A stretch of DNA of 40,123 nt from Rhodoferax sp. OV413 (GTDB lineage: Bacteria > Pseudomonadota > Gammaproteobacteria > Burkholderiales > Burkholderiaceae_C). The DNA lies in the NCBI GenBank assembly GCA_945861785.1, contig CAMAWD010000059.1:1-40123 (forward strand), read 5' to 3'. Under the pieces are notes generated by a model. It saw only the letters and a program-made list of their open reading frames with translations. It had not been told where the DNA came from and searched no databases. Shown here in pieces: positions 5,614 through 25,964 of this stretch; the stretch's first letter is position 1; each line of letters begins with the position of its first letter. The translations under genes and the position numbers were made by a program.

Positions 5614-5710
5614 GTTTTCCTGCGCTTGCGTCGCTGCCTCAACGTCGGAGAATCTAACAGTCAGATGACGACACGGGCGCAAGTGTTTGATTTGTATGGG
5701 TTGGCTTCAG

Positions 5711-5726
5711 GTGCACGGAAATTGCT
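5711..5726 (+). promoter_or_regulatory. Candidate sigma-54 promoter
   Basis: GTGCACGGAAATTGCT aligns with the -24/-12 consensus TGGCACG-N4-TTGCW at 10 of 12 defined positions with correct spacing. The flaw is GT for TG at the first two -24 positions. It lies about 80 nt upstream of the esterase start. PEP-CTERM genes are known in some bacteria to be under the PrsK/PrsR sigma-54 system, which makes the match more credible. Confidence 0.42.
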
Positions 5727-5817
5727 TTGGGCTTTGCCTGCATTCGGCCGAAGGCATAACGTCCTTGGCTGCCATGCACCCGGTGCCATATTGCACCACC
5801 CCCGTTCTGGAGTTTTC

Positions 5818-8949: not shown

Positions 8950-9002
8950 GGGTTCAGCTTATTGGCATGTGCTGCCGGGATGGTAAAACAAAAATTCTCC
9001 TC

Positions 9003-9050
9003 ATTTATGCAAATTTCAATAATTTATGTTGAAACAGTTTATTTATGTTG
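9003..9050. promoter_or_regulatory. Three ATTTATG direct repeats at 19-bp spacing
   Basis: ATTTATG occurs at 9003, 9022 and 9041, exactly 19 bp apart, and the last two copies extend to ATTTATGTTG. They lie in the AT-rich 162-bp gap between the divergent GntR and FAH genes, where both promoters must be. The regular phase points to cooperative binding by a regulator, most simply the adjacent GntR protein. Confidence 0.55.
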
Positions 9051-9111
9051 CAAAAATCCACCCGAACCTGCTGCCCGTTTTTCTTGAACCATCCCCATCG
9101 GGAGCCCGACC

Positions 9112-10017
9112 ATGTTGTCACTTGCCACTGTTGAACACCTCGGAAAACCCGTCGCCTGCATCGAACAGGACGGGCGTTTCCACCCTATCACCACCCTCGC
9201 CCAGGTGGCCGGCCGCACCGACCTGCCCGCAGACCTGATCGGCCTGTTTGGCGACTGGCCGCACAACGAGGCGGCCCTGTACGCGCTGGGTGCGCGCTGC
9301 AGCGCCGCCACCGCCCTGCCGGCGACCGGGCTCCGGGTACTGGCACCACTGCTCTACCCCGGCAAGATCCTGTGCGCGGGCGCCAACTACTTCGACCACC
9401 TGGCCGAGATGGGCATGCCCGGCGCCAGGAAGGAAGACCAGCGCCTGTTCTTTTTCATGAAGCCGCCGCGCAACGCCGTGGTCGGCTCCGGGCCGACCGT
9501 GCACATGCCCATCGGCACCAAGGCTTTTGACTGGGAAGTCGAACTCGCGATCGTGATCGGCAAGACCGCGCGCAATGTGCCGGTCGAGACCGCGCTGGAG
9601 CACGTGGCCTTCTACACGGTGGCGATCGATTTTTCGGCGCGTGACCACAACCGCGCGCCCGAGACCTTCTACAAGCTGGATTGGGTCGCCGGCAAGGCGA
9701 ACGACACCTGCTGCCCACTAGGCCCACGCCTGGTGCCGGCCACTGCAATCGCCAATCCGCAGACACTCGGCCTGAAGCTCTGGGTGAATGGCGAACTCAA
9801 ACAAAACGGCAATTCACGCGACATGATCTTCACGATTGCCGAACAGATCGCCACCGCCTCGCGCATCATGACACTCGACCCGGGCGACGTGCTGCTCACC
9901 GGCACCCCGGCCGGTGTGGGTGCGCCCAAACAGACCTTTCTGAAGGTCGGTGACCGGGTCGAGGCCGAGATCGAAGGCATCGGCCGGCTGGACGTCACGG
10001 TCCAGGAATCCCGCTGA
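9112..10017 (+). CDS. Fumarylacetoacetate hydrolase-family protein
   Basis: The 301-residue protein has the FAH C-terminal catalytic fold. ANYFDHLAEMG holds active-site His96, DWEVELAIVIG carries metal ligands Glu142 and Glu144, and VAIDFSARD supplies ligand Asp173. LTGTPAGVG near the C-terminus is a family signature. These Mg- or Mn-dependent enzymes cut or decarboxylate beta-diketo and 2-keto acids, such as fumarylpyruvate, 2-oxohepta-3-ene-1,7-dioate, or 2,4-diketo-3-deoxy sugar acids. GGGAG upstream supports the ATG. It is first in an operon with a TRAP importer and an SDR, which suggests that an imported acid is oxidised by the SDR and split here. The exact substrate is undetermined. Confidence 0.87.
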   Translation: MLSLATVEHLGKPVACIEQDGRFHPITTLAQVAGRTDLPADLIGLFGDWPHNEAALYALGARCSAATALPATGLRVLAPLLYPGKILCAGANYFDHLAEMGMPGARKEDQRLFFFMKPPRNAVVGSGPTVHMPIGTKAFDWEVELAIVIGKTARNVPVETALEHVAFYTVAIDFSARDHNRAPETFYKLDWVAGKANDTCCPLGPRLVPATAIANPQTLGLKLWVNGELKQNGNSRDMIFTIAEQIATASRIMTLDPGDVLLTGTPAGVGAPKQTFLKVGDRVEAEIEGIGRLDVTVQESR

Positions 10018-10068
10018 AACCTTGCACACCGACAACCCGCACTTTTTCATCCAACCAGGAGAATGACC

Positions 10069-11061
10069 ATGAACCTTCGCAGATCTCTCGTCGCCGCATC
10101 CTTGCTCGCCCTTGGCCTTGCCGTGGGCACCAACGCGTGGTCGCAAGCCATGCAGATGCGCATCTCGCACGCCGCAGCCGAATCGGACTGGCTGCACAAG
10201 TCGATGCTGATGTTCAAGGACAACGTGGAAAAGGCCTTGCCGGGCCAGGTCGCGGTGTCGGTGCATGGCGCGAGTTCGTTGTTCCGCCAGGGCACCGAGG
10301 TGCCAGCGTTGCAGCGTGGCAACCTGGAGATGAGCACCATGACCACGTTCGAGGTCGAACAACAGTTGCCCGAATACGGCATCCTGAGCAGCGGTTACCT
10401 GTTCCGCGACTACGAACATCTGGCCAAAGTCATGCGTGGCACTATCGGCAAGGACTACTACGATGCGGTCGCCGCGAAGATGGGCATCCAGATCATCGAG
10501 GTGAGTTACCTGGGCACGCGCCAGGTCAACCTGCGCCAGGCGAAAGATGTCAAGACCCCGGCGGATCTGGCCGGCGTCAAGCTGCGCATGCCAGCCGGGC
10601 CGGGTTGGCTGGCCCTGGGCAAAGGGCTGGGTGTGAGCCCCACACCGATGGCCATGCCCGAGGTCTACCTGTCGATGAAGACCGGCACGATCGACGGCCA
10701 GGAAAACCCGCTCGGCCTGGCCAAGAACAACAACCTGCAAGAAGTGTCCCAGCAGTTCGTGCTGACCTCGCACCTGGTGCAACCGATCTTCTACGCCATC
10801 GCCAAGCCGTTCTGGGACAAACTCAGCCCGGCCCAGCAGGAGGCCCTGCGCAAGGCGGCGCGCGAGTCGAGCAAGGCCAATGACGACGCCAAGCTGGCAG
10901 AGGAAAAGCAGATGGTCGACTTCTTCCTGAAGGCAGGCATGAAAGTCACCACCCCCGACCTGAACGCGTTCCGGGCGTCGGTGGACAAGCAGTATGTGGA
11001 TTCCGGCCTGGCCGCCAAGTGGATGCCCGGCCTGAAGGAGAAGATCCTCGCCGTGAAGTGA
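10069..11061 (+). CDS. TRAP transporter substrate-binding protein (DctP family)
   Basis: The 330-residue protein has a signal peptide (about residues 1-24, ending near AWSQA) and the DctP fold. VKLRMPAGPGW holds the conserved Arg that salt-bridges a substrate carboxylate, and the GTIDGQENP loop follows. It should bind an organic acid in the periplasm and deliver it to the membrane subunits encoded next. An ATG two codons earlier (10063) is only two bases from AGGAG, whereas 10069 has normal spacing, so the latter is chosen. The gene is 51 bp after the FAH gene and in the same direction. Confidence 0.92.
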   Translation: MNLRRSLVAASLLALGLAVGTNAWSQAMQMRISHAAAESDWLHKSMLMFKDNVEKALPGQVAVSVHGASSLFRQGTEVPALQRGNLEMSTMTTFEVEQQLPEYGILSSGYLFRDYEHLAKVMRGTIGKDYYDAVAAKMGIQIIEVSYLGTRQVNLRQAKDVKTPADLAGVKLRMPAGPGWLALGKGLGVSPTPMAMPEVYLSMKTGTIDGQENPLGLAKNNNLQEVSQQFVLTSHLVQPIFYAIAKPFWDKLSPAQQEALRKAARESSKANDDAKLAEEKQMVDFFLKAGMKVTTPDLNAFRASVDKQYVDSGLAAKWMPGLKEKILAVK

Positions 11062-11086
11062 TCGCCGCCCATCGAATCCGCACGCC

Positions 11087-11614
11087 ATGAACAGCTTGAA
11101 GGCCTTGCTCAACCGCGGCGCGAAGTTTGCCGAGTGGTTGTCGGTGGGCATGTTTTTTGCCATCTTCGTGCTGTTCATCGCGGCGGTGGTGATGCGTTAT
11201 GTCTTCGTGCGTCCGATCGAGTGGGCAGACGAATTCATCCTGATCCTGTTCCTGTGGACGACCTTCCTGACCGAGGCACTGGTGCTCACAGAGCGCGAGC
11301 AGGTGACTTTCGACGTGGTCTACGACATGTGCGGGCCCGCCGGGCGACGCGGCATAGGCCTGGTGGCCTCGGTCGTGGTCTGCGCAATGTTCCTGGCGGC
11401 CTTGCCCACGGTATTCGGTTACATCCTGTTCCTGTGGCGTGAACGCACACCGGTCATGGAGTGGCGACTGGACATCATCTTTTCGTGTTTCATGGTGTAT
11501 TGGGTGGCTGTCTGCGTGCGCGCCATCGCCAAGTTCAGCGCCTTGTGTGGTGCACGCTGGCAAACACATGTCGCGGGCGCCCTGCCGGATGAACGCGCCA
11601 ACGTGCTGGGCTGA
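11087..11614 (+). CDS. TRAP transporter small permease (DctQ family)
   Basis: The 175-residue protein has four predicted membrane helices, at about residues 18-40, 50-65, 88-112 and 128-148. The family marker EWADEF sits at the start of helix 2. It forms the membrane complex with the large permease and uses an ion gradient. It starts 25 bp after the binding-protein gene with a poor ribosome binding site, so coupling to upstream translation is likely. Confidence 0.9.
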   Translation: MNSLKALLNRGAKFAEWLSVGMFFAIFVLFIAAVVMRYVFVRPIEWADEFILILFLWTTFLTEALVLTEREQVTFDVVYDMCGPAGRRGIGLVASVVVCAMFLAALPTVFGYILFLWRERTPVMEWRLDIIFSCFMVYWVAVCVRAIAKFSALCGARWQTHVAGALPDERANVLG

Positions 11615-11637
11615 CCCATGCAGAAAGCAGGATGTCG

Positions 11638-11703
11638 ATGAGCCCCGCGCCGGACCGCCCCAAGCAAAGTCGCACCGCAGCGCGTAGCGTGGGGACCGCC
11701 TGA
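11638..11703 (+). CDS. Possible 21-residue ORF in the DctQ-DctM gap
   Basis: The 88-bp gap between the two permease genes carries a 21-codon frame (MSPAPDRPKQSRTAARSVGTA) ending in TGATG that shares a base with the large permease start. The Arg/Pro/Ala-rich text looks like a translated GC-rich intergenic repeat more than a protein. TRAP permease genes usually abut or fuse, so the insertion is unusual. The frame may just couple translation. Confidence 0.25.
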   Translation: MSPAPDRPKQSRTAARSVGTA

Positions 11704-12998
11704 TGAGCAATGCCCTGATGGCCATGTGCGCCATGCTGGTGGTCGGCGCGATACTGCGCTTTTCCATCGTGCTGCTGATGTTCACCAGTGGCCTGGCCTA
11801 CCTGTGGGTCAGCAAGCAGGACCTCGGCCTGATCGTCGACCAGACGCTCAACACCATGTTCGGCCTGTACGTGATGCTGGCGGTCCCGATGTTCATCCTG
11901 GCCGGCAATGTGATGAACGCCGCCACCATCAGCGAACGCATCTGGAGCGCGGCCGACGCCTTCGTGGGTCGCATGCGCGGCGGCATGGGCCATGTCACCG
12001 TGCTCATGAACCTGGTGATGTCGAGCATGAGCGGCAGCGCCGTGAGTGATGCCGCCGGCCCTGGGCTGGTGTCCGTCAGGATGATGCAGAAGGTGGGCAA
12101 CTACCCCGGCGGCCTGGCAGCAGCCATCGCTGCAGCCGCGGCGTGCCTGGGCCCCATCATCCCCCCGTCGATCCCGATGGTGATCTACGCACTGATCAGC
12201 GGCGCGTCCCTGGGCGCGTTGTTCCTTGCGGGCATCGTGCCCGGCCTGCTGATGGCTGTCAGCCTGATGCTGCTGATCGCCTGGATCGCCAGGAAGCGCA
12301 AGCTGCCCTTCGGAACGCCGATTGCCCTGCGCCAGATCCCCGCAGTGCTGGCGCGTGCAGCATTGCCCATGACGCTGCCCGTATTGCTGCTCGGCGGCAT
12401 CTGGAGCGGCATCTTCACGCCCACCGAGTCGGCCGCAGTAGCAGCCCTGTGGGTGATCATCCTGGGCGTGGTGGTGTACCGCAACATGGGCCTCAAGACG
12501 CTGGTGGCGACGTTCGCGGTGTCCACCCGCCAGTCGGCCGTGGTGATGATGCTGATCGTCAGCTCCTTCATCGTCAATTACGCCATCACGGCAGAAGGCG
12601 TTTCGGCCAACCTGGCGGTATTTATCAAGAGCCTGGACCTGTCGGCCATCGGTTTCCTGCTGCTGGTCAACCTGCTGTTCCTGGTGCTGGGCACCGTGCT
12701 CGATGGCGCGGTGATGCTGCTGGTGTTCGTGCCGGTCTTGTTGCCCACCGCCAAGGCGCTGGGCATCGACCTGGTGCAGTTTGGTGTGGTGGTGATACTC
12801 AACTTCATGATTGCCATGATCACGCCCCCGTATGGGCTGATCCTGTACGTGTTGTCGTCGCTGACCGGCGTGCGCATGCGCGACATCAACCGCGAGATCT
12901 GGCAGTTCTGCGTGCCGCTCACCGTGGTGATGCTGCTGCTGATCATCTTCCCCAGCCTCACCTTGTGGATGCCGCGCATGTTCGGCTACACGGGTTGA
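11703..12998 (+). CDS. TRAP transporter large permease (DctM family)
   Basis: The 431-residue polytopic protein is of standard DctM length, with a dozen or so hydrophobic segments. Family blocks include MLAVPMFILAGNVMNAA, MSGSAVSDAAG, CLGPIIPPSIPMVIYAL, TPTESAAVAALW and MITPPYGLILYV. It is the transport channel, coupling uptake of the bound acid to sodium or proton entry. GGGGA lies before the ATG. With the binding protein and small permease it makes a complete TRAP system. Confidence 0.94.
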   Translation: MSNALMAMCAMLVVGAILRFSIVLLMFTSGLAYLWVSKQDLGLIVDQTLNTMFGLYVMLAVPMFILAGNVMNAATISERIWSAADAFVGRMRGGMGHVTVLMNLVMSSMSGSAVSDAAGPGLVSVRMMQKVGNYPGGLAAAIAAAAACLGPIIPPSIPMVIYALISGASLGALFLAGIVPGLLMAVSLMLLIAWIARKRKLPFGTPIALRQIPAVLARAALPMTLPVLLLGGIWSGIFTPTESAAVAALWVIILGVVVYRNMGLKTLVATFAVSTRQSAVVMMLIVSSFIVNYAITAEGVSANLAVFIKSLDLSAIGFLLLVNLLFLVLGTVLDGAVMLLVFVPVLLPTAKALGIDLVQFGVVVILNFMIAMITPPYGLILYVLSSLTGVRMRDINREIWQFCVPLTVVMLLLIIFPSLTLWMPRMFGYTG

Positions 12999-13019
12999 TC
13001 CGTTCTGTCAGCCGACACC

Positions 13020-13775
13020 ATGATGCCAACATCAATACCCGCAGCGCAAGGAAAACCCGTCGCTTTTGTCACCGGTGCCGCCCAGGGCATCGGACTGGCC
13101 ACCGCTGAACGCCTGGCGCATGACGGTTTCCGTGTCGTCGCGATGGACCGCAATGGGGAGCGCCTGAACGTGGCGGTCGACCTGCTTGTCGCTGGCGGCC
13201 TCGACGTACTTGCGGCCGCTGTCGACATCTGCGACCGGGCCGCCGTGACCGCGGTGCTGGACGCCCAGCCACGCGTGGACGTCATGGTCTGCGCTGCCGG
13301 GATCTACAACGACGCCCGTTTCCTCGACCTGACCGAAGACGCATTTCGCGCCATGCTGGAGGTCAACGTGATCGGCACCTTCATCCCGGCGCAGGAGGCG
13401 GCACGGCGCATGCAGGCCGGTGGGCGCATCGTCACCATCTCGTCACGCGGCGCACTCGGCGGCACGCGTTTTGCGCACTATGTCGCGTCCAAGGCCGCCG
13501 TGATCGGCCTGACGCGTGCCATGGCGATGGAACTGCGCGAACGCCAGATTGCCGTTAACTCGGTTGCGCCGGGTTTTACCGATACTCCGATGACGCGTTC
13601 AGCGCCAGCGGAGATGTTTGCAGCGTGGGAGCAGTTGGAGCCGGGTGGGAAGGCAGCGACACCCGACCTGATCGCCAACGCAATTGCCTTTTTCGCCGCG
13701 CCGTCGACGCAGTTCATCACCGGGCAGACGCTGTTCGTCGATGGCGGCAAGTCGCTGGGCGGGCAGGGGATCTGA
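13020..13775 (+). CDS. Short-chain dehydrogenase/reductase
   Basis: The 251-residue classical SDR has the cofactor motif TGAAQGIG at residues 18-25 and the structural block CAAGIYND. The catalytic residues are Ser141/142 (TISSRG), Tyr154 and Lys158 (YVASK), and the C-terminal block is ITGQTLFVDGG. Acidic D43 after the second beta strand (VVAMDRN) favours NAD(H). It is the last gene of the FAH-TRAP-SDR operon, 21 bp after the large permease, and probably oxidises a hydroxyl on the imported acid. A second ATG at 13023 is equally possible, with no strong ribosome binding site for either. Confidence 0.88.
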   Translation: MMPTSIPAAQGKPVAFVTGAAQGIGLATAERLAHDGFRVVAMDRNGERLNVAVDLLVAGGLDVLAAAVDICDRAAVTAVLDAQPRVDVMVCAAGIYNDARFLDLTEDAFRAMLEVNVIGTFIPAQEAARRMQAGGRIVTISSRGALGGTRFAHYVASKAAVIGLTRAMAMELRERQIAVNSVAPGFTDTPMTRSAPAEMFAAWEQLEPGGKAATPDLIANAIAFFAAPSTQFITGQTLFVDGGKSLGGQGI

Positions 13776-13799: not shown

Positions 13800-14960
13800 T
13801 CAGTCGACCTGCGCTTCCAACAACTCGACGGGGTCGCCGTAGCGCCTGGCGAGTTCGATCACCGATGCGTCGCGCAAGGCGCACAGGAACCCGTCCTGTA
13901 TCAGCGTGTTCGGGCCTGCCGTGACAGTGCTGTCGAGCGTAATCAGGTCCATGTGCACCGGCGGCTCCTCCCAATCGGGCATGACCCGGCGAATGTAGTC
14001 GCTGGGTTTTGCGAGATCCAGTCCGAAGTGCAGCGCGCCCGGCGAATTGGAGCCCGCCGGGTACACCGTATGCCGCGGCGCCTTGGGGTTGAAGCCGCAG
14101 CCACCGCCTTCGATCATCCGGCTTCCGATCAGCATGTCGCGCAGGATGACGGCCTCTGCGGAGACGCCTTCCACCGCACACACCGTGTCGCCCTGGAAAC
14201 GCACCGCGATCTTTTCCTCGAACGGCCGGGCGAATCCGACCGCCCACTGCGGGTACAACACGCCGGCCATCGGCACCACGGCCGAGAAGTCGTTCTTCAC
14301 GGCGTTGTGGTCCCACAGGTTGGGGCCGTGGGTCGCCAGGTAGTGCACATAACAGCCATCCTCCTCGGCTGTCATCTGGCCGCGCCAGCGGTTGGTCGAG
14401 AGCTGGTTCGCGCGCATTTCCGGCGTGAAGCTGATGCGGAAATCGCTGCCGCGCCGATCGGTGAAACGCAGGTCGAAAGCACCCTCGGCCGGGTAACGGC
14501 TGGCCGTGGCGCGGATGATCTCACCGATCAGATCCATCGGCACCCGCGCCTGCGGTGTGTGCAGCAGGTCGAGGTTTCGAAAATAAGTGATCTTCACCCA
14601 GCGCTGGCCCTTGCGGCGCAAGTCGATACACAGCGGGTCGAGGATCGAGCAAAACCAGGTCGACACGACGAACGTGGCCTTGCGCAACATGGCGTGGACT
14701 TCTTCGGGCACAGCCGTGACCTGGGTGCTGGGCTCCATGTACACGCGCACTGTCGCACCGCGTGACCTGGCGATGCCGATCACAGCATCGATGACGCGCG
14801 GATCAAGCAGCGGGTCGGCCAGCATCAGCACCCGGTCGCCGGCGCGTATCGCCATGACACGCGTGAAGTTGTCCAGTGCCTGAAAGAAGTACTTGGTCTC
14901 GGTCAGGTTGGCCGCCACCGGCACCGGCAAGCCGACATAAGGAATGGGCGCAGCAGTCAT
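13800..14960 (-). CDS. M29 aminopeptidase/NicX-like metalloenzyme
   Basis: The 386-residue protein has a domain order resembling the M29 aminopeptidase clan and the related 2,5-dihydroxypyridine dioxygenase NicX. The N-terminal half has RAGDRVLMLADP and TFVVSTWF. The C-terminal metal region has His311 (ALHFGLD) and the HxD pair His336-Asp338 (PVHMDLITLDST). NicX binds iron with a comparable His, His-x-Asp set, so the ligands appear retained. Conserved Glu residues expected of two-zinc M29 peptidases are not obvious, which leans towards a NicX-like or new activity. It is the last gene of the ABC-enolase operon, 32 bp after the enolase-superfamily gene. GGAG before ATG 14960 supports the start. 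The alignment is by eye and the reaction is unknown. Confidence 0.6.
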   Translation of the reverse strand: MTAAPIPYVGLPVPVAANLTETKYFFQALDNFTRVMAIRAGDRVLMLADPLLDPRVIDAVIGIARSRGATVRVYMEPSTQVTAVPEEVHAMLRKATFVVSTWFCSILDPLCIDLRRKGQRWVKITYFRNLDLLHTPQARVPMDLIGEIIRATASRYPAEGAFDLRFTDRRGSDFRISFTPEMRANQLSTNRWRGQMTAEEDGCYVHYLATHGPNLWDHNAVKNDFSAVVPMAGVLYPQWAVGFARPFEEKIAVRFQGDTVCAVEGVSAEAVILRDMLIGSRMIEGGGCGFNPKAPRHTVYPAGSNSPGALHFGLDLAKPSDYIRRVMPDWEEPPVHMDLITLDSTVTAGPNTLIQDGFLCALRDASVIELARRYGDPVELLEAQVD

Positions 14961-14992
14961 GGTCGTCTCCGCAAGGTCAGGGCAATGAAATT

Positions 14993-16057
14993 TCAGTGTT
15001 GGGCATCCCACCAGGCCTGGGGGTCGAAACCCAGGCCGGGGGTGGTGGGCAGTGCCATGCGGCCATCGATGATGGGTGGCGGCTCGCACACGTTCTCGGC
15101 AAAGAACCGGGCCGTGCCGATGCCGGCGGCAAACATCGGCTGCGGCGTCAATGCGGTGCAATGGATCCCCAAGTACAGACCGACGGACGTCTCGATGCTG
15201 GAGGTGACGGTGCAATGGACGCCGGCATCCACTGCCGCGCGCACGATGTCGAGCAGCCGGTCTGGCCCGCCCACGCGCTGGGCCTTCAGAATGAAATAGT
15301 CGGCGGCCTGGTGCAGCACGGCCAGTTCGACATCGCGCAAGGTGCGGATGCTGTCGTCCAGTGCGATCGGCACCGGTGTCTGGCGGCGCAAGGCGCCATA
15401 CACCGCCAGTGGTGTCCCGCGTGGCAGCGGTTCCTCGCAGTATTCGATGCCCAGCGGCGCCATCGCATTGAGCTGTTCGGCAGCCCAGGAGACCGGCCAG
15501 CTCTCGTTCGGGTCCAGCCGGATCTTCACCGCCGGCAGCGCAGTGCGGATGGCGGTGATGCGGGCCAGGTCCAGGGCACGCTCCGGGGTGCATTTCACCT
15601 TGACGGTGTCCTGCCCACGCGCCACGGCGGCGCGAGCACGCGCCACACAGTCCTCGGGCGCGGCATCACCAATCAGGTCGTTGACCGGTACATGTGTCGG
15701 CAGGGCATGCGTAGCGCCCAGCAGGAAGGCTGCCAGCGGCAAGCCCGCCTGCGCCGCCTTGAGTGTGAGCAGCGTGGTGGCGATGCCGCAGCGTATGCGT
15801 GCCGGGCATTCGCGCAGGTCGACCTGCGCCAGGAAATCGTCGTCCATCGGATCCAGGCCCGTCAACAGCGCCTCGCATTCACGTGCAAAAGCGGCAGGTG
15901 CATAGTCGACATGGGGTGGCAACGCTGCCTCGCCCCATCCCACCAAAGCGCCCTGCTGCAGCCGCAGGATGAGCCCGGCGCGGTGGTGCTGTGTTCCCTT
16001 GGACCAGCGGTAGGGCGTGGACAAGGCCAGCCGGTAGGGTCGGATTTCCATCTTCAT
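14993..16057 (-). CDS. Enolase-superfamily enzyme (muconate-lactonizing subgroup)
   Basis: The 354-residue protein keeps the full active site of the MLE subgroup. The KxK motif is Lys153/Lys155 (TVKVK). Metal ligands are Asp182 (LDPNESW), Glu208 (EYCEEPLP) and Asp234 (IALDDS). The opposite base is Lys258 (ILKAQRVGG), followed by SSIETSVG. The subgroup includes muconate cycloisomerase, o-succinylbenzoate synthase, N-acylamino acid racemase and dipeptide epimerase. The two-base KxK and lack of menaquinone genes nearby favour a racemase/epimerase or cycloisomerase in catabolism. Its start shares ATGA with the ABC ATPase stop and has AGGAG, so it is translated with the importer. The substrate presumably enters through that importer. 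Confidence 0.82.
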   Translation of the reverse strand: MKMEIRPYRLALSTPYRWSKGTQHHRAGLILRLQQGALVGWGEAALPPHVDYAPAAFARECEALLTGLDPMDDDFLAQVDLRECPARIRCGIATTLLTLKAAQAGLPLAAFLLGATHALPTHVPVNDLIGDAAPEDCVARARAAVARGQDTVKVKCTPERALDLARITAIRTALPAVKIRLDPNESWPVSWAAEQLNAMAPLGIEYCEEPLPRGTPLAVYGALRRQTPVPIALDDSIRTLRDVELAVLHQAADYFILKAQRVGGPDRLLDIVRAAVDAGVHCTVTSSIETSVGLYLGIHCTALTPQPMFAAGIGTARFFAENVCEPPPIIDGRMALPTTPGLGFDPQAWWDAQH

Positions 16058-17127
16058 GCAGGCTCCTTCTTCAGTCCCATCAGCCGGGCGGCAGGCAATT
16101 CCACCTGGACCGGCGCTCCGGCGTCGAATGGCCGTGTGGCATCGACCTGGGCGTTGAGTTTGCGCCCGGACGCCAGCTGTACCACCAACTGCTGCTGTCG
16201 CCCGGAAAACACCACGCTGTGCAACTGGCCCGCGATCCGGTTCGGGCCCTCGGGCAGGATCTCGCTGCCCTGCCGCACCACAATCGCCTCCGGCCGGATC
16301 GCCACCGAGCTCAGGCCCTCTTGCCCTCGGGCCAGCGTCAGGGGACCGAGTTCGGTGTCCACCTGCAGGCCCTGGCACCGCGACACCGACAGGATCTCGG
16401 CTGCACCCAGGAAGGTGGCGCCGAACACGGTCGTCGGTGACAGGTACAACCCACGCGGTGTGCCGATCTCGACCAGTTGCCCGGCATTCATCAGTGCAAT
16501 GCGGTCGGACAGCATCAGGGCCTCTTCCTGGTCATGGGTGACATAGATGGCCGTCATGCCGACACGTTTGAGCAGGTCGCGCAATTCGATGCGCATCTGT
16601 TCGCGCAGTTTGGCATCCAGATTGGACAGTGGCTCGTCGAGCAGCATCACGGCAGCGCGGCGCACGAGTGCGCGCGCGATTGCCACGCGCTGCTGCTGGC
16701 CACCCGACAGCTGGGTGGCACTGCGCTGCGCCATATCGCCCAGGCCCACCATCTCGAGCACTTCGGCGACGCGCCGGCCAATCTCGGGGCGCGCGAGCTT
16801 CTTGACCTCCAATGGGAAGGCCACGTTCTGCCCCACCGTCATGTGCGGCCAGACCGCGTAGGACTGGAACACCATCGCGATGTCGCGCGCATGGATCGGT
16901 ACGTGGACCGCGCCGGAATGGTCGAACACGCGCTGCTCGGCGATGGTGATGACCCCGGCAGACGGCGTCTCCAGCCCGGCCACGCTGCGCAGCGTGGAAG
17001 TCTTGCCACAGCCGCTGGGGCCCAGCAGCGTGAAGAACTCCCCGGCTGCGATGTCCAGCGACACACCGCGCACGGAGGGGTGCGCCGCCCCGGGATAGGA
17101 AAGCCAGAGATCCTGGATGTTTACCAT
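16054..17127 (-). CDS. ABC importer ATPase (iron/phosphonate/polyamine type)
   Basis: The 357-residue protein has a standard ABC domain: Walker A GPSGCGKT at residues 36-43, Q-loop VFQSYAVWPHMTVGQN, signature LSGGQQQR, Walker B VMLLDEPLSNLD and switch His in YVTHDQEEA. A C-terminal TOBE-like domain (about residues 275-350) is typical of the FbpC/PotA/2-aminoethylphosphonate branch. The start at 17127 follows the permease stop by 8 bp. A longer in-frame start at 17268 would lie inside the permease gene. It powers import together with the next two upstream genes. Confidence 0.92.
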   Translation of the reverse strand: MVNIQDLWLSYPGAAHPSVRGVSLDIAAGEFFTLLGPSGCGKTSTLRSVAGLETPSAGVITIAEQRVFDHSGAVHVPIHARDIAMVFQSYAVWPHMTVGQNVAFPLEVKKLARPEIGRRVAEVLEMVGLGDMAQRSATQLSGGQQQRVAIARALVRRAAVMLLDEPLSNLDAKLREQMRIELRDLLKRVGMTAIYVTHDQEEALMLSDRIALMNAGQLVEIGTPRGLYLSPTTVFGATFLGAAEILSVSRCQGLQVDTELGPLTLARGQEGLSSVAIRPEAIVVRQGSEILPEGPNRIAGQLHSVVFSGRQQQLVVQLASGRKLNAQVDATRPFDAGAPVQVELPAARLMGLKKEPA

Positions 17128-17135
17128 GCGTTGAC

Positions 17136-18839
17136 TCAGTTGTGCGGCAGAGGCGCACGCCGCTCCGAGAGCCACTGCCACACGATCGTCACCACGGTCA
17201 TTGCCACGACCAGCCACACACCGACCGCTGCTGCCTTGTTGGGTTCGCCGCCCGACCAATAACTCCAAAGCTGGACCGATACCGTGGCGTTGCTGTCACC
17301 CTGCAGCAGCAAGGCGGTGGACAACTCGCGCATCACATGGGCGACCACCCAGACCCAGGCCCCCACCAGTGCCGGCAGCATAAGCGGCAGCACGATCCGG
17401 CGCACGGCATAGGCGGGCGTGGCGCCGCTGGTGCGCGCGGCCTCCTCCAGCTCGGGATGCAACTGGATCATGGTGGCCGACGCCGCGCGCGAGGTGAATG
17501 ACAGGTACACCGTGACATAGGCGATCACCAGGATCCACGGCGTACCGTAGACCGGAACCGCACTCAGGGTCAGATAGACATAGATCAGCGCCATGCCGAT
17601 CATGGTGCCCGGGATCGCCAGCGGCAGGAACGACAGGGTGTCGATGAGGTTGCGGCCGCGCCCCTTGCCGCGCAACACCGTCCAGGCCACCAACAGCGCC
17701 AAGACCGTGACCACGGTGGCGCTGAGCATGGAGACCCAGACCGACATCCAGGTCGCCTGGCCCATGCGTGTGTTGTCCAGCAAGGCGCGGTGCTGGTCGA
17801 GCCCGAGTTTGGGCACCATCTCCCAGCTGACGGGCGCCAGGTAGGGTGTGAGGCTGGTCCACAACAGCAGGCTCAGCGGCGCGAGAACTGCCAGCAGGAA
17901 ATACAGGGCGATAAGCGCCATTGCCACACCCTTCAAACGCCCCAGCTTGAGTTCGCGCGGGCGAAAACCCTTGCCGGTCACGGTGACGAACCGGTCGGCC
18001 TGCGCGGTCATACGGCGGTAGGCCCATGCCAACGCCATCAACAGCACCAGGAAGGTCACACCGATCGCCGCGATCTGTCCATACGCAGAGATCCCGCCGG
18101 ACTGGTCTGTCGCCAGGTAGACGATGCGCGAAGAAACGACGAACAAACCCACCGGCATTCCCAGGGTGCCGGGCACGTCGAACACGAGGGAGCCCACGAT
18201 GAGCAGGTAGGCGGCCGCCGCCAGCAAGGCCGGGGCCAACATGGGGATGAAGATACGCGTGACGATGCGCGGCCAACGTGCGCCACTGGTCATGGCGGCC
18301 TCTTCCAGCGCCGGGTCCATGTTGCGGAAAGCGCCGGCCAGGATCAGGTACACCGACGGCACCAAGGCCAGGGTTTCGACAAAGACCATGCCACCCAGGG
18401 TGTAGATGTCCAGGGGCCCCTGCGTCCATCCAAACACGCTCTTGAACACTTCGTTGAGCGATCCATTGCGCGGGCTGGCCAGCAGGGCCCAGCCCATGGC
18501 CAGCAAAAAAGGCGGCAACACCATGGGCAAGGCAATCATCACCCGGGCCAGGCCCTTGAACGGAAGGTCAGTGCGCTCGACCAGCCAGGCCAGTACGCCC
18601 CCGGTCAACAGGGCGCACACCATGCAGCCCAGCGCGAACACCGCCGTGTTGCGCAACAAGGCATAGAAACCCGGGTCGCCGTACACCGCCGCGTAGTGAA
18701 CCAGGCCCCACCCGTCGTCCAGTGGCAGGCCCGTCGGCTTGAAGCTGGCCACGAGTAGCAGCAACAACGGCACCGCCACCAGATACAGCAACAGCAGCAG
18801 CAAGCCTGCCTTCAACCAGGGCAATCGCTGCAAGGACAT
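17136..18839 (-). CDS. ABC importer permease, two fused membrane domains
   Basis: The 567-residue protein joins two binding-protein-dependent transport domains, as in ThiP and FbpB. Each half carries an ATPase-contacting EAA loop: EEAAMTSGARWPRIVTRIF in the N-half and EEAARTSGATPAYAVRRIV in the C-half. About twelve membrane segments are visible. A single chain therefore supplies both halves of the channel. Its ATG at 18839 overlaps the stop of the binding-protein gene (ATGA). Fused permeases of this branch serve ferric iron, thiamine, phosphonates or short organic ions. Confidence 0.92.
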   Translation of the reverse strand: MSLQRLPWLKAGLLLLLLYLVAVPLLLLLVASFKPTGLPLDDGWGLVHYAAVYGDPGFYALLRNTAVFALGCMVCALLTGGVLAWLVERTDLPFKGLARVMIALPMVLPPFLLAMGWALLASPRNGSLNEVFKSVFGWTQGPLDIYTLGGMVFVETLALVPSVYLILAGAFRNMDPALEEAAMTSGARWPRIVTRIFIPMLAPALLAAAAYLLIVGSLVFDVPGTLGMPVGLFVVSSRIVYLATDQSGGISAYGQIAAIGVTFLVLLMALAWAYRRMTAQADRFVTVTGKGFRPRELKLGRLKGVAMALIALYFLLAVLAPLSLLLWTSLTPYLAPVSWEMVPKLGLDQHRALLDNTRMGQATWMSVWVSMLSATVVTVLALLVAWTVLRGKGRGRNLIDTLSFLPLAIPGTMIGMALIYVYLTLSAVPVYGTPWILVIAYVTVYLSFTSRAASATMIQLHPELEEAARTSGATPAYAVRRIVLPLMLPALVGAWVWVVAHVMRELSTALLLQGDSNATVSVQLWSYWSGGEPNKAAAVGVWLVVAMTVVTIVWQWLSERRAPLPHN

Positions 18840-19849
18840 CAACGGGCGGCGCCGACCGCCTCCAGCATCTTGTTGTAGTAATCGTTCAGGGCGCCTAGCT
18901 GGTCCGACTTCTCGGGCGGCCACTCGGACAACTTCTTGCCCTTGATGAACTGCGCGGTCTTGGTCTTGGCGATGATCGGGTTGCCGCGCCCTGTGGCCTG
19001 CTCGTAGGCCAACGCGCCGTCTTCGGTGGCCAGCCACGACAGGAACACGCGGGCGCCCTCCGGGTTGCGCGCGTTTTTGCTGATGCCGGAATAGATCATG
19101 TGCATGGGCACCACGTCCAGCGCGCGCATTTTCACCGGCGCGCCGGCATTGATCGGTGGCAACGTGGAGTGGTAAAAACCGATGCCGAGGTCGATCTCGC
19201 CAGAACCGACGGCCTGCGCCAGCGGAAACGTGCTCTTGAACAACATCGGCTTGAGTGCAATGAAGCGTTCGAGCTGCTTGCGCGAGGTGTCCGGCCCCTG
19301 TGTGGCGGCCAGCTGCGCGAAGGCAGCGGCCCGCACCCACGAGCCCATCCGGTTGGTCCACTTCGGGTCGAGCACCTGTTCCCAGGTGGTGGGCGCCTCG
19401 GCGTCGGTCACCTTCTTGGTGTTCCAGGCCACCACATACACCGACGCGGTGGTCGCCATCATGAACGGGTTGGGGTTCAGCGCCTTGGCGACTCCCAGCG
19501 CGCCCCAGTTCACCTGTTCCAGGTAACCTCGACCATTGATCTGAAACAGGTGGTCCGCACCGCCGGTCAACACATCGCCGGTGTAACCACGGGCCTGCAT
19601 CTCCTGCACTGTGCGCACGGCCAGTTCGTTGCCTCCGACCAGCCGGGTCTGTCGAACCTTGACGTTCGGGTACTTCTGCGCAAACGCGGCAATGACCTTG
19701 TCGCCCTGGTCAGCCGGCGAACTCTCGTACCAGACCACCGGTGGCTTCTTTTCTGCGGCAGTTGCCAGCTGGGCCAGGGACTGGGCGAATGCGGGCATCG
19801 CTGCAGCGCTGATCGCAAGTGCCACCGCCAAGTGCGGGAATGGGTTCAT
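18839..19849 (-). CDS. ABC importer binding protein (FbpA/AfuA-like)
   Basis: The 336-residue protein has a signal peptide (residues 1-22, ending AFAQS) and a type II periplasmic-binding fold: VVWYESSPADQGDKVIAAF, TGGADHLFQINGRG, VYVVAWNTKKV, GSGEIDLGIGFYHSTLPP, then ARVFLSWLATEDGA. The family binds ferric iron, thiamine, phosphonates or sugar phosphates. I do not see the twin-Tyr iron motif of FbpA, so an organic ligand is more likely, in keeping with two enzymes at the end of the operon. ATG 19849 has GGAG at good spacing. It heads the five-gene operon and is divergent from a GntR regulator. Confidence 0.88.
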   Translation of the reverse strand: MNPFPHLAVALAISAAAMPAFAQSLAQLATAAEKKPPVVWYESSPADQGDKVIAAFAQKYPNVKVRQTRLVGGNELAVRTVQEMQARGYTGDVLTGGADHLFQINGRGYLEQVNWGALGVAKALNPNPFMMATTASVYVVAWNTKKVTDAEAPTTWEQVLDPKWTNRMGSWVRAAAFAQLAATQGPDTSRKQLERFIALKPMLFKSTFPLAQAVGSGEIDLGIGFYHSTLPPINAGAPVKMRALDVVPMHMIYSGISKNARNPEGARVFLSWLATEDGALAYEQATGRGNPIIAKTKTAQFIKGKKLSEWPPEKSDQLGALNDYYNKMLEAVGAAR

Positions 19850-19924
19850 GGGGAAGCTCCTGATGAATGAATCGGCCAACGACACACCGACCCGGCACCT
19901 GCGACTGCCGCCCGGAGATCAAAT

Positions 19925-19936
19925 ATTGCATGCAAT
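19925..19936. promoter_or_regulatory. Palindromic operator candidate ATTGCATGCAAT
   Basis: This perfect 12-bp palindrome lies between the extended -10 of the ABC operon and its first gene, where a bound repressor would block transcription. Its core TGCATGCAA recurs at 20013-20021. The adjacent divergent GntR regulator is the obvious candidate ligand. Confidence 0.5.
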
Positions 19937-19959
19937 TGTTACCAACCAACGCACTCTAT

Positions 19960-19973
19960 CTGATCTATATCAG
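19960..19973 (-). promoter_or_regulatory. CTGAT-N4-ATCAG repeat over a candidate -10
   Basis: CTGAT/ATCAG forms a perfect inverted repeat. On the minus strand the same bases read TGATATAGA, an extended -10 (TG-N-TATA..) for the ABC operon; no good -35 is seen. A regulator bound to the repeat would control the promoter directly. Confidence 0.35.
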
Positions 19974-20012
19974 GGCTAAGATGGGTGTTTACACTTAGTC
20001 GCGACTGATAAC

Positions 20013-20020
20013 TGCATGCA
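20013..20020. promoter_or_regulatory. Second TGCATGCA operator candidate
   Basis: TGCATGCA is repeated 86 bp from the first copy (19927-19934), close to the GntR gene's own promoter region. Paired sites on both sides of a divergent promoter fit autorepression plus control of the ABC operon, possibly by looping. Confidence 0.42.
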
Positions 20021-20091
20021 AAAGTCCGCATGGTCAGGCGTTTGTCTTTCAAACTCGGCACCACCGCCGCGCACTGCACAGAGGGTTATCG

Positions 20092-20823
20092 ATGAGTTCC
20101 CAAATCGACAAGGTCGTGACCGAACTGCGCGGTCGCATCCTCTCGGGCGAACTGCCGGCCGGGCACCGGGTCGTGGAGCTGCAATTCACCCACGAGCTCC
20201 AGGTGTCGCGCACACCGCTGCGCATTGCGCTGGGAGAACTGGAGCGTGAAGGGCTGCTGGAGCGCCTGCCCACCCGCGGTTTTCGCGTGCGCAATTTCTC
20301 GATGGGCCAGATAGCGGATGCAGTCGACGTGCGTGGCGTGCTGGAAGGCATGGCGGCACGCCTGGCGGCGGAACTCGGCCTCGCGCAGGACATGCTCGCG
20401 CAGATGGAAAGCTGCCTGGAACTTGGGCAAGGATTGGTGGATTCGGCCACACGGACGTCGAGTGCGGTCGGCGCCCAGCAGTGGGCCGACATGAACCTGC
20501 GTTTGCACATGCTGATCGTTCGGTCCTGCGGCAACACCGCCCTGGAAGGCGCCCTGGGATTCGTCAGCCGCACGCCGATGGGCGGGGCGGGCGCGCTGAC
20601 TCTGCAGGGCGTGATACCTGAACTGGAGACCTCATTCATACGGCGCGCTCAAAGCGACCATGTGGACGTGGTGCAGGCGATGCGACAAGGCGCGGGCGCA
20701 CGCGCCGAGGCCATCATGCGCGAACACGCCTACCGCAGCCGGGAGAACAAGAAAGTCCTGATCGCGCGACTGCCCCGAGGGACAGAAGGACGGATCAGCC
20801 CGCTTTCGACAACTGAAAAGTGA
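20092..20823 (+). CDS. GntR-family regulator (FCD/FadR-like)
   Basis: The 243-residue protein has a GntR winged helix at about residues 1-70 (ELRGRILSGELPAGHRVVE, then HELQVSRTPLRIALGELERE) and a helical C-terminal effector domain. A possible metal-site His is in MNLRLHMLIVRSCGN, with a second in MREHAYRSREN. GAGG precedes the ATG. It is transcribed divergently from the ABC-enolase-M29 operon across a 242-bp gap holding two TGCATGCA palindromes, and probably represses that operon. The ligand is probably the imported compound or a product of the two enzymes. Confidence 0.9.
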   Translation: MSSQIDKVVTELRGRILSGELPAGHRVVELQFTHELQVSRTPLRIALGELEREGLLERLPTRGFRVRNFSMGQIADAVDVRGVLEGMAARLAAELGLAQDMLAQMESCLELGQGLVDSATRTSSAVGAQQWADMNLRLHMLIVRSCGNTALEGALGFVSRTPMGGAGALTLQGVIPELETSFIRRAQSDHVDVVQAMRQGAGARAEAIMREHAYRSRENKKVLIARLPRGTEGRISPLSTTEK

Positions 20824-22199: not shown

Positions 22200-23153
22200 T
22201 CACAAGGTTTTCAGGAACGCCGCCCCGTCCCCGATCGCCTGCATGGCGAGCGGCTCCACGGCCGAGTAGTGCAGAAAGCCGTGCAACACGCCCACATAGG
22301 TTTCCAACCGGTGCGGCACGCCACGCTCCTTGCAGAATTCGGCCAGCACCAGGGAATCATCCCGCAAGGGGTCGTAGGCCACGGCGGCGATGAAGGTCGG
22401 GGGCAGGCCTGCCATGTCGGCCTTCAGCAGATTGTTGCGCGGGTGCTCGCGGTCCTGGTCCGTTGCGGTGTAGGCGTCGCGGTATTGGGCGGTGTCTTCG
22501 TCGCCCAGGCCATCGAGGTCCGCCCAGCCGTACAGGCGGCGCGAGGCGGAGTCCTTGAGGCCATAACCACCGTAATACAGCAACTGGCCGCACACTGCCG
22601 GCGACCCGGCGGCCCGCGCGTCGAGCGTGGCACCCAGGCTCAGGTGGGCGCCGGCGGAGTCACCACCGACCGCCATGCGTGTGTTGTCCAGGCCCCATTC
22701 CCGGCCATGGGCCGCCACATGCCGCAACACTGCGAACACCTGGTCGGGCTGCACGGGGAACTTCTTCTCGGGCGCCAGGGAGTAGTCGATCGCCAGCACC
22801 GCCCAGCCGCTCAGCTTTGCCAGCAGACGACAGATCCGGTCATGGGTGTCCAGGTTGCCCAGCATGTAACCACCGCCGTGGGAATACAGCAGCACCGGCA
22901 GCAAACCGTCGACCGCCGGCTGGTACAGGCGCAGCGCGACGGTGCCATGGCCGGTGTCGAGCGAAAGGTCGCGCACCGCCGGCAGGTCTACGGCAAAGCT
23001 GTTCCAGTAGGCGCGCTCGTGGTTGTAGCCCTCGCGCGCGGCCAGCAGCGGGCTGACCGAGCCGGGTTTGAAGCTGGCGTACTGCTGGCGGCTGAGTTCC
23101 AGCACCTGCAGTGATTCGGCGCGCAGGCGGCCGCGGATGTCGACTTTGGGCAT
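22200..23153 (-). CDS. Alpha/beta hydrolase, hormone-sensitive-lipase family
   Basis: The 317-residue protein has the HSL oxyanion motif HGGGY at residues 92-96, the nucleophile elbow GDSAG with Ser166, acid Asp261 (AYDPLRDD) and catalytic His291 (VLHGFLHY). These esterases hydrolyse short-chain esters in the cytoplasm. ATG 23153 is chosen because it gives the normal family length; upstream in-frame codons extend into non-conserved sequence, and the ribosome binding site is weak. It is divergent from the peptide importer at 23389 and could act on an imported compound, though co-regulation is not shown. Confidence 0.87.
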   Translation of the reverse strand: MPKVDIRGRLRAESLQVLELSRQQYASFKPGSVSPLLAAREGYNHERAYWNSFAVDLPAVRDLSLDTGHGTVALRLYQPAVDGLLPVLLYSHGGGYMLGNLDTHDRICRLLAKLSGWAVLAIDYSLAPEKKFPVQPDQVFAVLRHVAAHGREWGLDNTRMAVGGDSAGAHLSLGATLDARAAGSPAVCGQLLYYGGYGLKDSASRRLYGWADLDGLGDEDTAQYRDAYTATDQDREHPRNNLLKADMAGLPPTFIAAVAYDPLRDDSLVLAEFCKERGVPHRLETYVGVLHGFLHYSAVEPLAMQAIGDGAAFLKTL

Positions 23154-23288
23154 GCCGGCATTCTGCCATCCGCCGGCCAGCACGCGCCAGCTGCGGAACA
23201 TCGGCGCTCCTAAATGGGGCGCGCCGGACTCCCTCGAGCGACGGGTTCTTGACGCAACGCGACCTTTTCCCCATGGTAGTTTCCCCAT

Positions 23289-23388: not shown

Positions 23389-24975
23389 ATGTCGCAGGAA
23401 CTCAATTACCTCAGCCAACAGGTGGCGCTCGGCCGCGGCTCGCGCCGCGATTTCCTTGGCCGCGCCGCCGCGCTGGGGCTGTCGGCCGCTGCGGCCAATG
23501 CCTTGCTGGCGACTGCGGCGCAGGCCGCCGGCCCGCGCAAAGGTGGCACACTGAAGATCGGCCTGCAGGGTGGCGCCGCCACCGACAGCCTGGATCCGGC
23601 ACTGGCCGCCAACCAGGTCACCTTCCACGTCGGCCGGATGTGGGGTGAAGAACTGGTGCGCCTGTCGCCGACCGGGCAACTTGAACCACGCCTCGCCACC
23701 GAATGGCGCTCCTCGCCGGATGCCAAGGCCTGGGTGTTCAAGATCCGCAAGGGCGTGCAGTTCCACAACGGCAAGGAGATGACGGCCGACGACGTCGTGG
23801 CCACCATGCAGCGCCACAGCGGGCCCAACACCAAGTCGGGCGCCCTGGGCATCATGCGCGGCGTCGACTCGGTCAGCCGCGATGGCGACACCGTGATCTT
23901 CACGCTCAAGGACGCCAGCGCCGACTTCCCCTACCTGCTGACCGACTACCACCTGTTGATCCAGCCGGGCGGCGGCAACGACAACCCCAAGGCCGCAATC
24001 GGCACCGGCCCTTACAAGATAGTCACCAACGAGCCGGGCGTGCGTGTCATCGGTGAACGCTTCAAGAACTACTGGGCCGCCAGCACCCGTGGCCATGCCG
24101 AGACGGTCGAGATTACTGTGCTCAACGACAGCACTGCCCGTACTGCGGCACTGCAAAGCGGCCGCGTCAACATCATCAACCGCATCGATCCGAAGGTCGT
24201 CGACCTGATCAAACGCGCGCCGGGCGTCACGATCCAGAGCGCCTCCGGCCGCGGTCACTATGTGTTCATCGCCCATTGCAACACGGCGCCGTTCAACAAC
24301 CTCGACCTGCGCCTGGCCCTGAAGTTCGCCATGGACCGCAAGGAGATGGTCGACAAACTGCTGCGTGGTTTCGGGTCGATCGGCAACGACTTCCCGATCA
24401 ATGCCAGCTACCCGCTGTTCTCCGAACTGCCGCAGCGCCCCTTCGACACCGACAAGGCGGCCTTCCACTACAAGAAGTCGGGCCACAACGATGCGATCCT
24501 GCTGCGCACATCCGAAGTCGCCTTCCCAGGTGCCGTCGACGCTGCCCAGCTTTACCAGGCGACCTGCGCCAAGGCCGGCATCAAGATCGAAGTGAAGCGC
24601 GAGCCTGGCGACGGTTACTGGTCCAATGTCTGGAACAAGCAGCCTTTCTCCACCTCGTACTGGGGCGGTCGCGCGGTGCAGGACCAGATGTGGTCGACCG
24701 CCTACATCACCGGCGCCGACTGGAACGACACCCGTTATTTCAACCCGGCCTTCGACAAGATGGTGGTCGCCGCGCGGGGCGAACTGAACACCGCCAAGCG
24801 CAAGACCATGTACAAGGACATGGCGTTGATCGTGCACAACGAGGGCGGCGCGATCGTCCCGATGTTCAACGACACCATCGACGCCACCGGCCCCAAGGTC
24901 GGCGGCTGGGTCAAGAACCCGAACGCCGAACTCATGGGCGGCATGGCCGCATCCGAGTGCTGGCTCGAAGCCTGA
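23389..24975 (+). CDS. Tat-exported peptide-type ABC binding protein
   Basis: The 528-residue protein is an extracellular solute-binding family 5 (DppA/OppA) member. It begins with a twin-arginine signal, SRRDFLGRAAALG at residues 18-30, ending near AQAA, so it is exported folded. Family blocks are LDPALAANQVTFHVGRMWGE, WVFKIRKGVQFHNGKEMTADDV, then IGTGPYKI. Ligands of the family include di- and oligopeptides, nickel complexes, opines and glycosides; the ligand here is not evident. AGGAG before ATG 23389 and a candidate promoter at 23289 support the start. It leads a four-gene importer operon. Confidence 0.92.
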   Translation: MSQELNYLSQQVALGRGSRRDFLGRAAALGLSAAAANALLATAAQAAGPRKGGTLKIGLQGGAATDSLDPALAANQVTFHVGRMWGEELVRLSPTGQLEPRLATEWRSSPDAKAWVFKIRKGVQFHNGKEMTADDVVATMQRHSGPNTKSGALGIMRGVDSVSRDGDTVIFTLKDASADFPYLLTDYHLLIQPGGGNDNPKAAIGTGPYKIVTNEPGVRVIGERFKNYWAASTRGHAETVEITVLNDSTARTAALQSGRVNIINRIDPKVVDLIKRAPGVTIQSASGRGHYVFIAHCNTAPFNNLDLRLALKFAMDRKEMVDKLLRGFGSIGNDFPINASYPLFSELPQRPFDTDKAAFHYKKSGHNDAILLRTSEVAFPGAVDAAQLYQATCAKAGIKIEVKREPGDGYWSNVWNKQPFSTSYWGGRAVQDQMWSTAYITGADWNDTRYFNPAFDKMVVAARGELNTAKRKTMYKDMALIVHNEGGAIVPMFNDTIDATGPKVGGWVKNPNAELMGGMAASECWLEA

Positions 24976-24994
24976 CAGCGACCCGACCCGCTTG

Positions 24995-25954: not shown

Positions 25955-25964
25955 GGGCTGACCG

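Follow-up and report, generated by a model that had tools for sequence, protein, structure and literature searches.

Peptidases of family M29 bind metal through two glutamates, two histidines and an aspartate, four of which form an E-H-HxD pattern, with Glu250 in AmpT as the remaining ligand. Dipeptide epimerases of the enolase superfamily are marked by a DxD motif towards the barrel end. The dioxygenase NicX binds iron through H265, S302, H318 and D320, and each of the four alanine mutants is inactive and iron-free (PMC7910607). Here we describe a six-gene locus of Rhodoferax sp. OV413 that joins an ATP-binding cassette (ABC) importer, an enzyme of the muconate lactonizing enzyme (MLE) subgroup and a metalloprotein predicted to share the fold of NicX and the M29 peptidases. 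It lies in a 40,123-nucleotide stretch (contig CAMAWD010000059.1), hereafter the window. We propose, with a rough probability of 0.38, that the locus is a GntR-controlled catabolic operon for the import of an organic acid conjugate, its isomerization by the MLE and its metal-dependent hydrolysis. Its features are as follows.

13800..14960, minus strand: predicted M29/NicX-fold metalloprotein, 386 residues; fold from an AlphaFold2 model and Foldseek, without a Pfam or NCBIfam match at E<=1e-3
14993..16057, minus strand: MLE-subgroup enzyme of the enolase superfamily, 354 residues; PF13378 (MR_MLE_C), 136.8 bits
16054..17127, minus strand: ABC ATPase with a TOBE domain, 357 residues; Pfam ABC_tran and TOBE_2
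17136..18839, minus strand: fused ABC permease, 567 residues; two PF00528 (BPD_transp_1) stretches
18839..19849, minus strand: periplasmic solute-binding protein (SBP) related to FbpA/HitA, 336 residues; Pfam SBP_bac_1, 34.7 bits
19926..19935, no strand: putative operator of the GntR protein, a palindrome (TTGCATGCAA) some 76 bp upstream of the SBP start
20013..20020, no strand: second putative operator core, TGCATGCA, spaced 86 bp from the first core
20092..20823, plus strand: divergent GntR/FCD regulator, 243 residues; Pfam GntR and FCD

Five co-directional genes (SBP, permease, ATPase, MLE and M29-fold) and the divergent GntR gene make up the unit. The SBP and permease genes overlap by 1 base and the ATPase and MLE genes by 4 bases, with gaps of 8 bp between permease and ATPase and 32 bp between MLE and M29-fold gene, and such short overlaps and gaps are typical of operons. 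A preliminary description of this DNA had proposed five co-directional genes faced by a GntR gene, an FbpA/ThiP-type importer with a fused permease, and a tight junction between importer and enolase. The genes are present at the coordinates first given, the Pfam domains of the SBP, permease and ATPase bear out the importer, and the shared 4 bases, followed after a short gap by the M29-fold gene, bear out the junction. The operator, the wider regulon and the link to phthalate-type genes presented below are additions to that first reading.

We hypothesize that the GntR protein probably represses the operon at TTGCATGCAA sites in the absence of an inducer, and that the SBP, fused permease and ATPase would then import an organic carboxylate. 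The MLE would take the alpha-proton of this carboxylate and isomerize it, acting most likely as an epimerase or racemase on an alpha-substituted acid, for example an N-acyl (or N-aroyl) amino-acid-like one. The M29/NicX-fold protein would hydrolyse an amide or ester bond, passing the acid into central or aromatic-acid catabolism.

To place the locus among its relatives, one genome for each of 84,980 species was scanned, which gave 109 relatives; the best 80 of the 109 loci were kept and, with the window, form a set of 81 stretches. Loci were found by conserved peptides, so that distant members are missed, and neighbouring genes are lost from view where contigs are cut. Polaromonas, Roseomonas, Pigmentiphaga and Limnohabitans supply many closely related loci, which are not independent. 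Genes outside the window were called by an open reading frame (ORF) picker that mis-extends starts and skips genes, and which did not pick the window's own MLE and SBP as separate genes; tblastn tables are more reliable. Few genomes of the order have the M29-fold family: it occurs in 13 of 399 genomes and in 4 of 60 in another sample, with the window's own genome counted in both.

In locus L021, from a second species of the genus, the GntR, SBP, permease, ATPase, MLE and M29-fold genes follow in the same order at 72-81% identity. The same six-gene order appears at 38-57% identity in L125, which comes from a genome of the family of a Rhodobacteraceae metagenome-assembled genome. The last gene product of L125 (P0005, start uncertain) is a distant M29-fold protein that matches no Pfam family and aligns with hhalign at E 2.5e-6 over 316 columns, with 'WEASIGTNP' at the place of E284 and 'GVIHMGFG' at the place of H311 of the window protein. 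Because the same gene order recurs in L021 and L125, the operon is more than a chance arrangement, and because its last position is filled by two different branches of the fold, a real functional link can be argued. Co-conservation of enzymes and transporter, on which the preliminary description had staked its proposal, was thus found, though rarely.

Elsewhere the unit is incomplete or rearranged. ATPase, MLE and M29-fold genes stand together on a cut contig in L084, and in L075 (Roseomonas) the five genes are present in another arrangement, together with two genes for Bug-type receptors and no GntR relative. L117 (Roseomonas) has permease, ATPase, MLE and SBP genes without an M29-fold gene; there, an Asp/Glu/hydantoin racemase gene (PF01177, 12524-13384) adjoins the importer-MLE unit and an M20 peptidase gene (4924-6351) lies within 3 kb. 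In L116 (Ottowia) and L118 (Roseomonas) the MLE gene is accompanied by a Bug-type gene, and on the one Ottowia contig this pair is about 10 kb from phthalate-type and M29-fold genes. The MLE subfamily is present in 6 of the 46 searched genomes that bear the M29-fold family (covering 47 of the 80 loci) and, at E<=1e-50, in 0 of 199 other genomes of the order (Fisher p 3.3e-5), a comparison in which the cut-offs (1e-40 and 1e-50, all six matches being 1e-123 or better), the scored candidates per genome (up to 43 in the set of 46 and up to 10 in the set of 199) and the taxa differ. Among 295 genomes of the family of the L084 genome, 2 have it, the L084 genome itself being one of them.

A Bug-type receptor gene is the immediate neighbour of the M29-fold gene in 45 of 81 stretches, on the same strand in 43; the family name (Bug/TctC) comes from one member, which matches PF03401. 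The ORF script found a permease or SBP like those of the window in 10 of 81 stretches, window included, to which L084 adds its contig end, and genes of tripartite ATP-independent periplasmic (TRAP) type follow the M29-fold gene in L082, L083 and L089. The M29-fold enzyme is the constant part in the wider family, and the importer type and the MLE are accessories that vary with lineage. Enzymes of the ornithine cyclodeaminase (OCD)/mu-crystallin type stand beside M29-fold genes in L071 and L101 (by Pfam) and in L069 and L100 (by clustering). Together with the racemase and M20 peptidase genes of L117, these amino-acid-type neighbours support the proposed conjugate operon.

GntR relatives at 37-72% identity occur in 17 of the 80 loci. 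The 242-bp stretch between the window's GntR and SBP genes contains ATTGCATGCAAT, which includes TTGCATGCAA. In the 7.13-Mb genome TTGCATGCAA is found in 6 places and a reversed control pattern in 0. One of the other five places (L128) lies 112 bp upstream of an FAD-enzyme-like ORF, and no evident link was seen at the remaining four. The shorter core TGCATGCA stands upstream of the GntR gene in 17 of 19 loci (the window, the 17 with a GntR relative, and L125), L056 and L057 being the two without it. Across the 80 loci, 40 of 55 cores fall within 2600 bp upstream of an M29-fold match (191,810 bp) and 15 in the remaining 1,114,956 bp, a 15.5-fold difference in rate. That upstream stretch holds at least one core in 21 of 80 loci, at least two in 17, and none in 59.

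The distance between paired cores is 51-52 bp in 14 loci and 84-85 bp in 5, among them the same-genus locus L021 (85 bp); in the window it is 86 bp. These spacings would fit whole turns of the helix. Other arrangements occur: L125 has spacings of 63, 120 and 204 bp, a single core stands in each of L089 and L056, and L051 has an extra pair at 62. In L023 the pair lies by the GntR gene, 7.4 kb from the M29-fold gene, in L057 it is upstream of the M29-fold gene and not of GntR, and in four related Polaromonas loci, with no GntR relative in the locus, it is directly upstream of a lone M29-fold gene. Cores occur whether the importer is of the Bug type, the ABC type with MLE, the TRAP type (single core) or absent. 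Base composition predicts 13.2 cores in comparison to the 55 observed; however, three runs of first-order Markov resampling gave 42, 45 and 62, and we rejected a global excess of the core. Because the total is not above the Markov expectation, the evidence for an operator lies in position and spacing.

The constant component of these loci is set apart from curated families. At E<=1, 0 of 58 aligned members match the M29 model PF02073, and the 12 Pfam families that surface do so at 0.03 or worse; PF02073 is found in 0 of 40 related genomes. Searches of the PDB with phmmer and with profiles gave no useful match to the family, and plasmid records gave none to the protein. An AlphaFold2 model built on the 58-row alignment (pLDDT 90.5, pTM 0.88) places the protein in the M29/NicX fold, since at E<=1e-3 Foldseek returns five PDB chains only: NicX (7cn3; E 3.7e-15, TM 0.57/0.62) in first rank, then PepS (4icq, 4ics, 4icr) and AmpT (2ayi) at E 9e-8 to 1.3e-5 (4icq and 2ayi at 9e-8 to 1.7e-6). 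The family profile also aligns with that of NicX (hhalign E 2.4e-6, probability 89%).

Six residues are invariant in 58 of 58 members, the putative metal ligands E284, H311, H336 and D338 together with H206 and H211, which agrees with the His...His-x-Asp set first noted (H311, H336-x-D338). Ligands were mapped from sequence and profile alignment. H318-x-D320 of NicX falls opposite H336-x-D338, and NicX H189 opposite H206. NicX H265 is opposite the invariant Glu284 and S302 has no clear counterpart, and because an iron ligand is replaced in this way the site is not of NicX type. E284, H311, H336 and D338 resemble the E-H-HxD ligands of M29 peptidases, a likeness by pattern, the AmpT sequence not being aligned. 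The protein lies outside the NicX type, judged by its ligand set, and outside the classical M29 family, judged by model score. Structure prediction, as proposed in the preliminary description, gave a fold closest to NicX and then to M29, and the alignments speak against a NicX-type metal site. The window genome has a second M29-fold copy on another contig (L097, 10287-14073, 65% identical), followed by a Bug-like receptor gene and a gene for an FAD-binding enzyme; no TGCATGCA core is found in the 19.9 kb of L097.

The MLE retains the active site first described. K153, K155, D182, E208, D234 and K258 are correct and invariant in four sequences (window plus three relatives). This lysine pair and these metal ligands are those of N-acyl/N-succinylamino acid racemases; because they are common to MLE-subgroup enzymes generally, they are not diagnostic of such a racemase. 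None of the 14 matched NCBIfam families reaches its own cut-off. The menC model TIGR01927 comes nearest (105.3 of 130.55 bits); the other scores include menC PRK02901 (133.3 of 288), muconate/chloromuconate cycloisomerase TIGR02534 (88.8 of 334.95) and DgcA (83.7 of 400). The best sequence relatives in the PDB are the o-succinylbenzoate synthase (OSBS) 2opj and the dipeptide epimerase 3q45, with 1jpm also among the best matches. A model of moderate quality (pLDDT 75.0, alignment of four sequences) has the putative muconate cycloisomerase 2pgw as its top Foldseek match (E 1.3e-21). Plasmid records give 260 matches, all below 60% identity, the highest among the 15 matches listed being 41.6%. The window genome, 97.87% complete, has 0 matches to the intradiol dioxygenase family PF00775, so there is no evident source of muconate for a classical cycloisomerase. 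With TIGR02534 below its cut-off as well, we rejected the classical muconate pathway. No menaquinone genes were found among the scanned window genes, the search being of the window and not of the whole genome.

These features leave room for a different chemistry on an imported polycarboxylate, in which the M29-fold protein would carry out, for example, a decarboxylation, deamination or C-C cleavage, and the MLE would dehydrate or isomerize a related acid. The lack of a meaningful curated-model match for the M29-fold family fits this, as do the Bug-type receptors beside its gene, with uptake proposed to run through Bug, TRAP or ABC systems, and the closeness of the MLE to OSBS dehydratase 2opj and to TIGR01927. 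However, no positive evidence speaks for a given reaction and the menC cut-offs are not reached, and we consider this alternative doubtful.

Phthalate-type genes recur around the family. Four families (Rieske oxygenase, reductase, Gfo/Idh dehydrogenase and a 4,5-dihydroxyphthalate-decarboxylase-like protein) were followed, and at least two of them are present in 23 of 81 stretches, or about 22 without L085, which is doubtful since its two such genes are seven genes away on either side. Among stretches of at least 15 kb, 21 of 53 have at least two of these families, window and L085 counted. The decarboxylase-like neighbour shares 77% identity with a Polaromonas naphthalenivorans protein annotated as 4,5-dihydroxyphthalate decarboxylase, and in one matching plasmid record pht5 and pht4 are named under the match; the names of the other three families come from weak model matches and gene context. 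None of the four is present among the scanned window genes. The window genome has a phthalate-type cluster on contig C9 (L126, 5088-10192: MarR, reductase, Rieske, Bug and decarboxylase-like genes), beside which no M29-fold gene was picked. These neighbours favour an aromatic link.

Such a link raises the question of ring cleavage, in which the M29/NicX-fold protein would be a non-heme Fe(II) dioxygenase opening the ring of an aromatic or N-heteroaromatic acid that carries hydroxyl groups, with the MLE cyclo-isomerizing or rearranging the product. NicX is the best structural match, E284, H311, H336 and D338 could still form a 2-His-carboxylate site, the phthalate-type genes would make dihydroxylated acids, and L071 has a LigB-type gene near its M29-fold gene. 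Against this stand the replaced NicX ligands and a domain survey of 30 genomes, made up of the window's genome and the genomes of 29 among the 80 loci. PF00775 is found in 29 of them, all but the window's, and PF07746 (LigA) in 22, so that every genome has at least one, the domains alone being no proof of protocatechuate cleavage. Ring cleavage by the M29-fold enzyme is therefore not obviously needed, and the survey lowers the case for such a role. We consider it unlikely, and the stronger version, in which this protein is the sole ring-cleavage enzyme of the phthalate-type clusters, was rejected on the same survey.

A route for plain dipeptides, with a dipeptide importer, an MLE dipeptide epimerase and an M29-like aminopeptidase, is improbable. 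It would explain why PepS and AmpT make up four of the five fold matches and why the MLE has the epimerases 3q45 and 1jpm among its best matches by sequence. However, the D-F-D of 3q45 lies opposite G-I-G in the window MLE, the Ala-Glu epimerase model NF011708 scores 49.9 bits against a cut-off of 343, PF02073 is not matched, and the operon's importer belongs to a type other than Dpp/Opp. A Dpp/Opp-type importer is encoded elsewhere in the window (23389-28440, plus strand); it consists of an SBP_bac_5 gene, two permease genes and an ATPase gene with two ABC_tran stretches, and is divergent from an alpha/beta hydrolase gene at 22200-23159. Of the preliminary interpretation, the import-and-processing operon and the M29/NicX fold are borne out; as regards its two routes, evidence stands against NicX-like ring cleavage in the one and against plain dipeptides in the other.

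The importer itself suggests an organic ligand. The SBP aligns with HitA (6iwf) at E 3e-8, and the HitA stretch NYYWY, whose twin Tyr we take to be the iron-binding pair, falls opposite GFYHST, the first Tyr being replaced by Phe. The incomplete twin-Tyr noticed at the outset is thereby borne out, and an organic rather than ferric ligand is plausible from this alignment. A ferric-iron uptake operon was rejected, given the two metabolic enzymes in the unit and the incomplete motif. Uptake of 2-aminoethylphosphonate, suggested by best NCBIfam matches of the ATPase, permease, SBP and regulator to PhnT2, PhnU2 (TIGR03262), phnS2 and phnR_burk as distant PhnS2/U2/T2 and PhnR relatives, is very improbable, with all four below cut-off (310.6 of 457.7, 131 of 593.25, 21 of 392.75 and 81.3 of 271.5 bits) and no operon gene of a known phosphonate-cleaving type.

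Several observations weigh against our own proposal of isomerization and hydrolysis of an acid conjugate. The MLE is absent from most M29-fold loci, and because L116, L117 and L118 have it with an importer gene and apart from an M29-fold gene, the two enzymes are not obligatory neighbours. P0005, at the end of the L125 operon, lacks D338, with H-L-Y in the alignment. AmpT Glu250 has no clear counterpart in the window protein, which has P237-Q238-W239 there instead, and for this reason a peptidase-like site with two metals is doubtful and one with a single metal and no hydrolytic role is possible. The first-ranked fold match is a dioxygenase. The phthalate-type linkage points to aromatic acids, not amino acids, and an aroyl conjugate is not implied by any gene.

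Around the operon, a TRAP unit (8203-13775, plus strand) with genes for a fumarylacetoacetate hydrolase (FAH)-family protein, a DctP/Q/M-type transporter and a short-chain dehydrogenase/reductase (SDR) is convergent with it, and a 294-residue ORF in this stretch (8203-9087) has no Pfam match. We rejected the SDR, TRAP and FAH genes (9112-13775, plus strand) as part of the operon, since they are convergent and no counterparts showed in L021. Further along are a TctC/Bug receptor gene (PF03401; 32209-33237, plus strand), between a thioesterase-like gene and an ORF that matches no Pfam family, and a gene for a penicillin amidase family protein (36248-38668, plus strand), which matches PF01804 at 703.9 bits over the whole profile and belongs to a family of N-acyl amide hydrolases.

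Each protein of the operon is of known fold. Searches of open-licence PubMed Central papers found none on this gene set, as had been suspected, and within that literature the M29-fold family, the regulon and the phthalate-type linkage appear to be undescribed. We put it somewhat short of an even chance that the family is a new enzyme class, neither classical peptidase nor NicX-type dioxygenase, and the core of an undescribed GntR/TTGCATGCAA regulon in beta- and alphaproteobacteria, with interchangeable importers (Bug, PhnU-like ABC, TRAP), a frequent place beside phthalate-type catabolism and a rare MLE partner of new specificity. An enzyme family with no curated model is now tied to a predicted operator, to importers and to phthalate-type pathways. 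The substrate should be experimentally reachable, because one compound, or successive ones, should be recognised by the regulator, the binding protein and both enzymes. The family may also show how the fold moved between hydrolysis and the ring cleavage of NicX, and would be relevant to biodegradation should a phthalate-type conjugate prove to be the substrate.

Compared with known systems, the importer resembles the PhnSTUV- and FbpABC-type ABC importers in domain make-up and the fused permease, and differs in its sub-cut-off model scores and incomplete twin-Tyr. The MLE has the KxK, D, E, D, K set of its subgroup (2opj, 3q45, 2pgw); however, it is only 18-27% identical to the 50 listed fold matches, is below cut-off everywhere and lacks the DxD. 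Genes of the o-phthalate 4,5-dioxygenase pathway (pht/oph) accompany the M29-fold family in about 22 of 81 loci, whereas none of them is in the window operon. The M29-fold protein shares the overall fold, the HxD pair and H189/H206 with NicX (7cn3), from which it is set apart by Glu284 in place of H265, the unmatched S302, an identity of 18-22% and the substrate-guiding H105, which is not kept in the profile alignment. With the M29 aminopeptidases (AmpT 2ayi, PepS 4icq) it shares the fold and the E-H-HxD pattern, and it differs from them in that its family does not match PF02073 and the fifth ligand, Glu250, is not evident.

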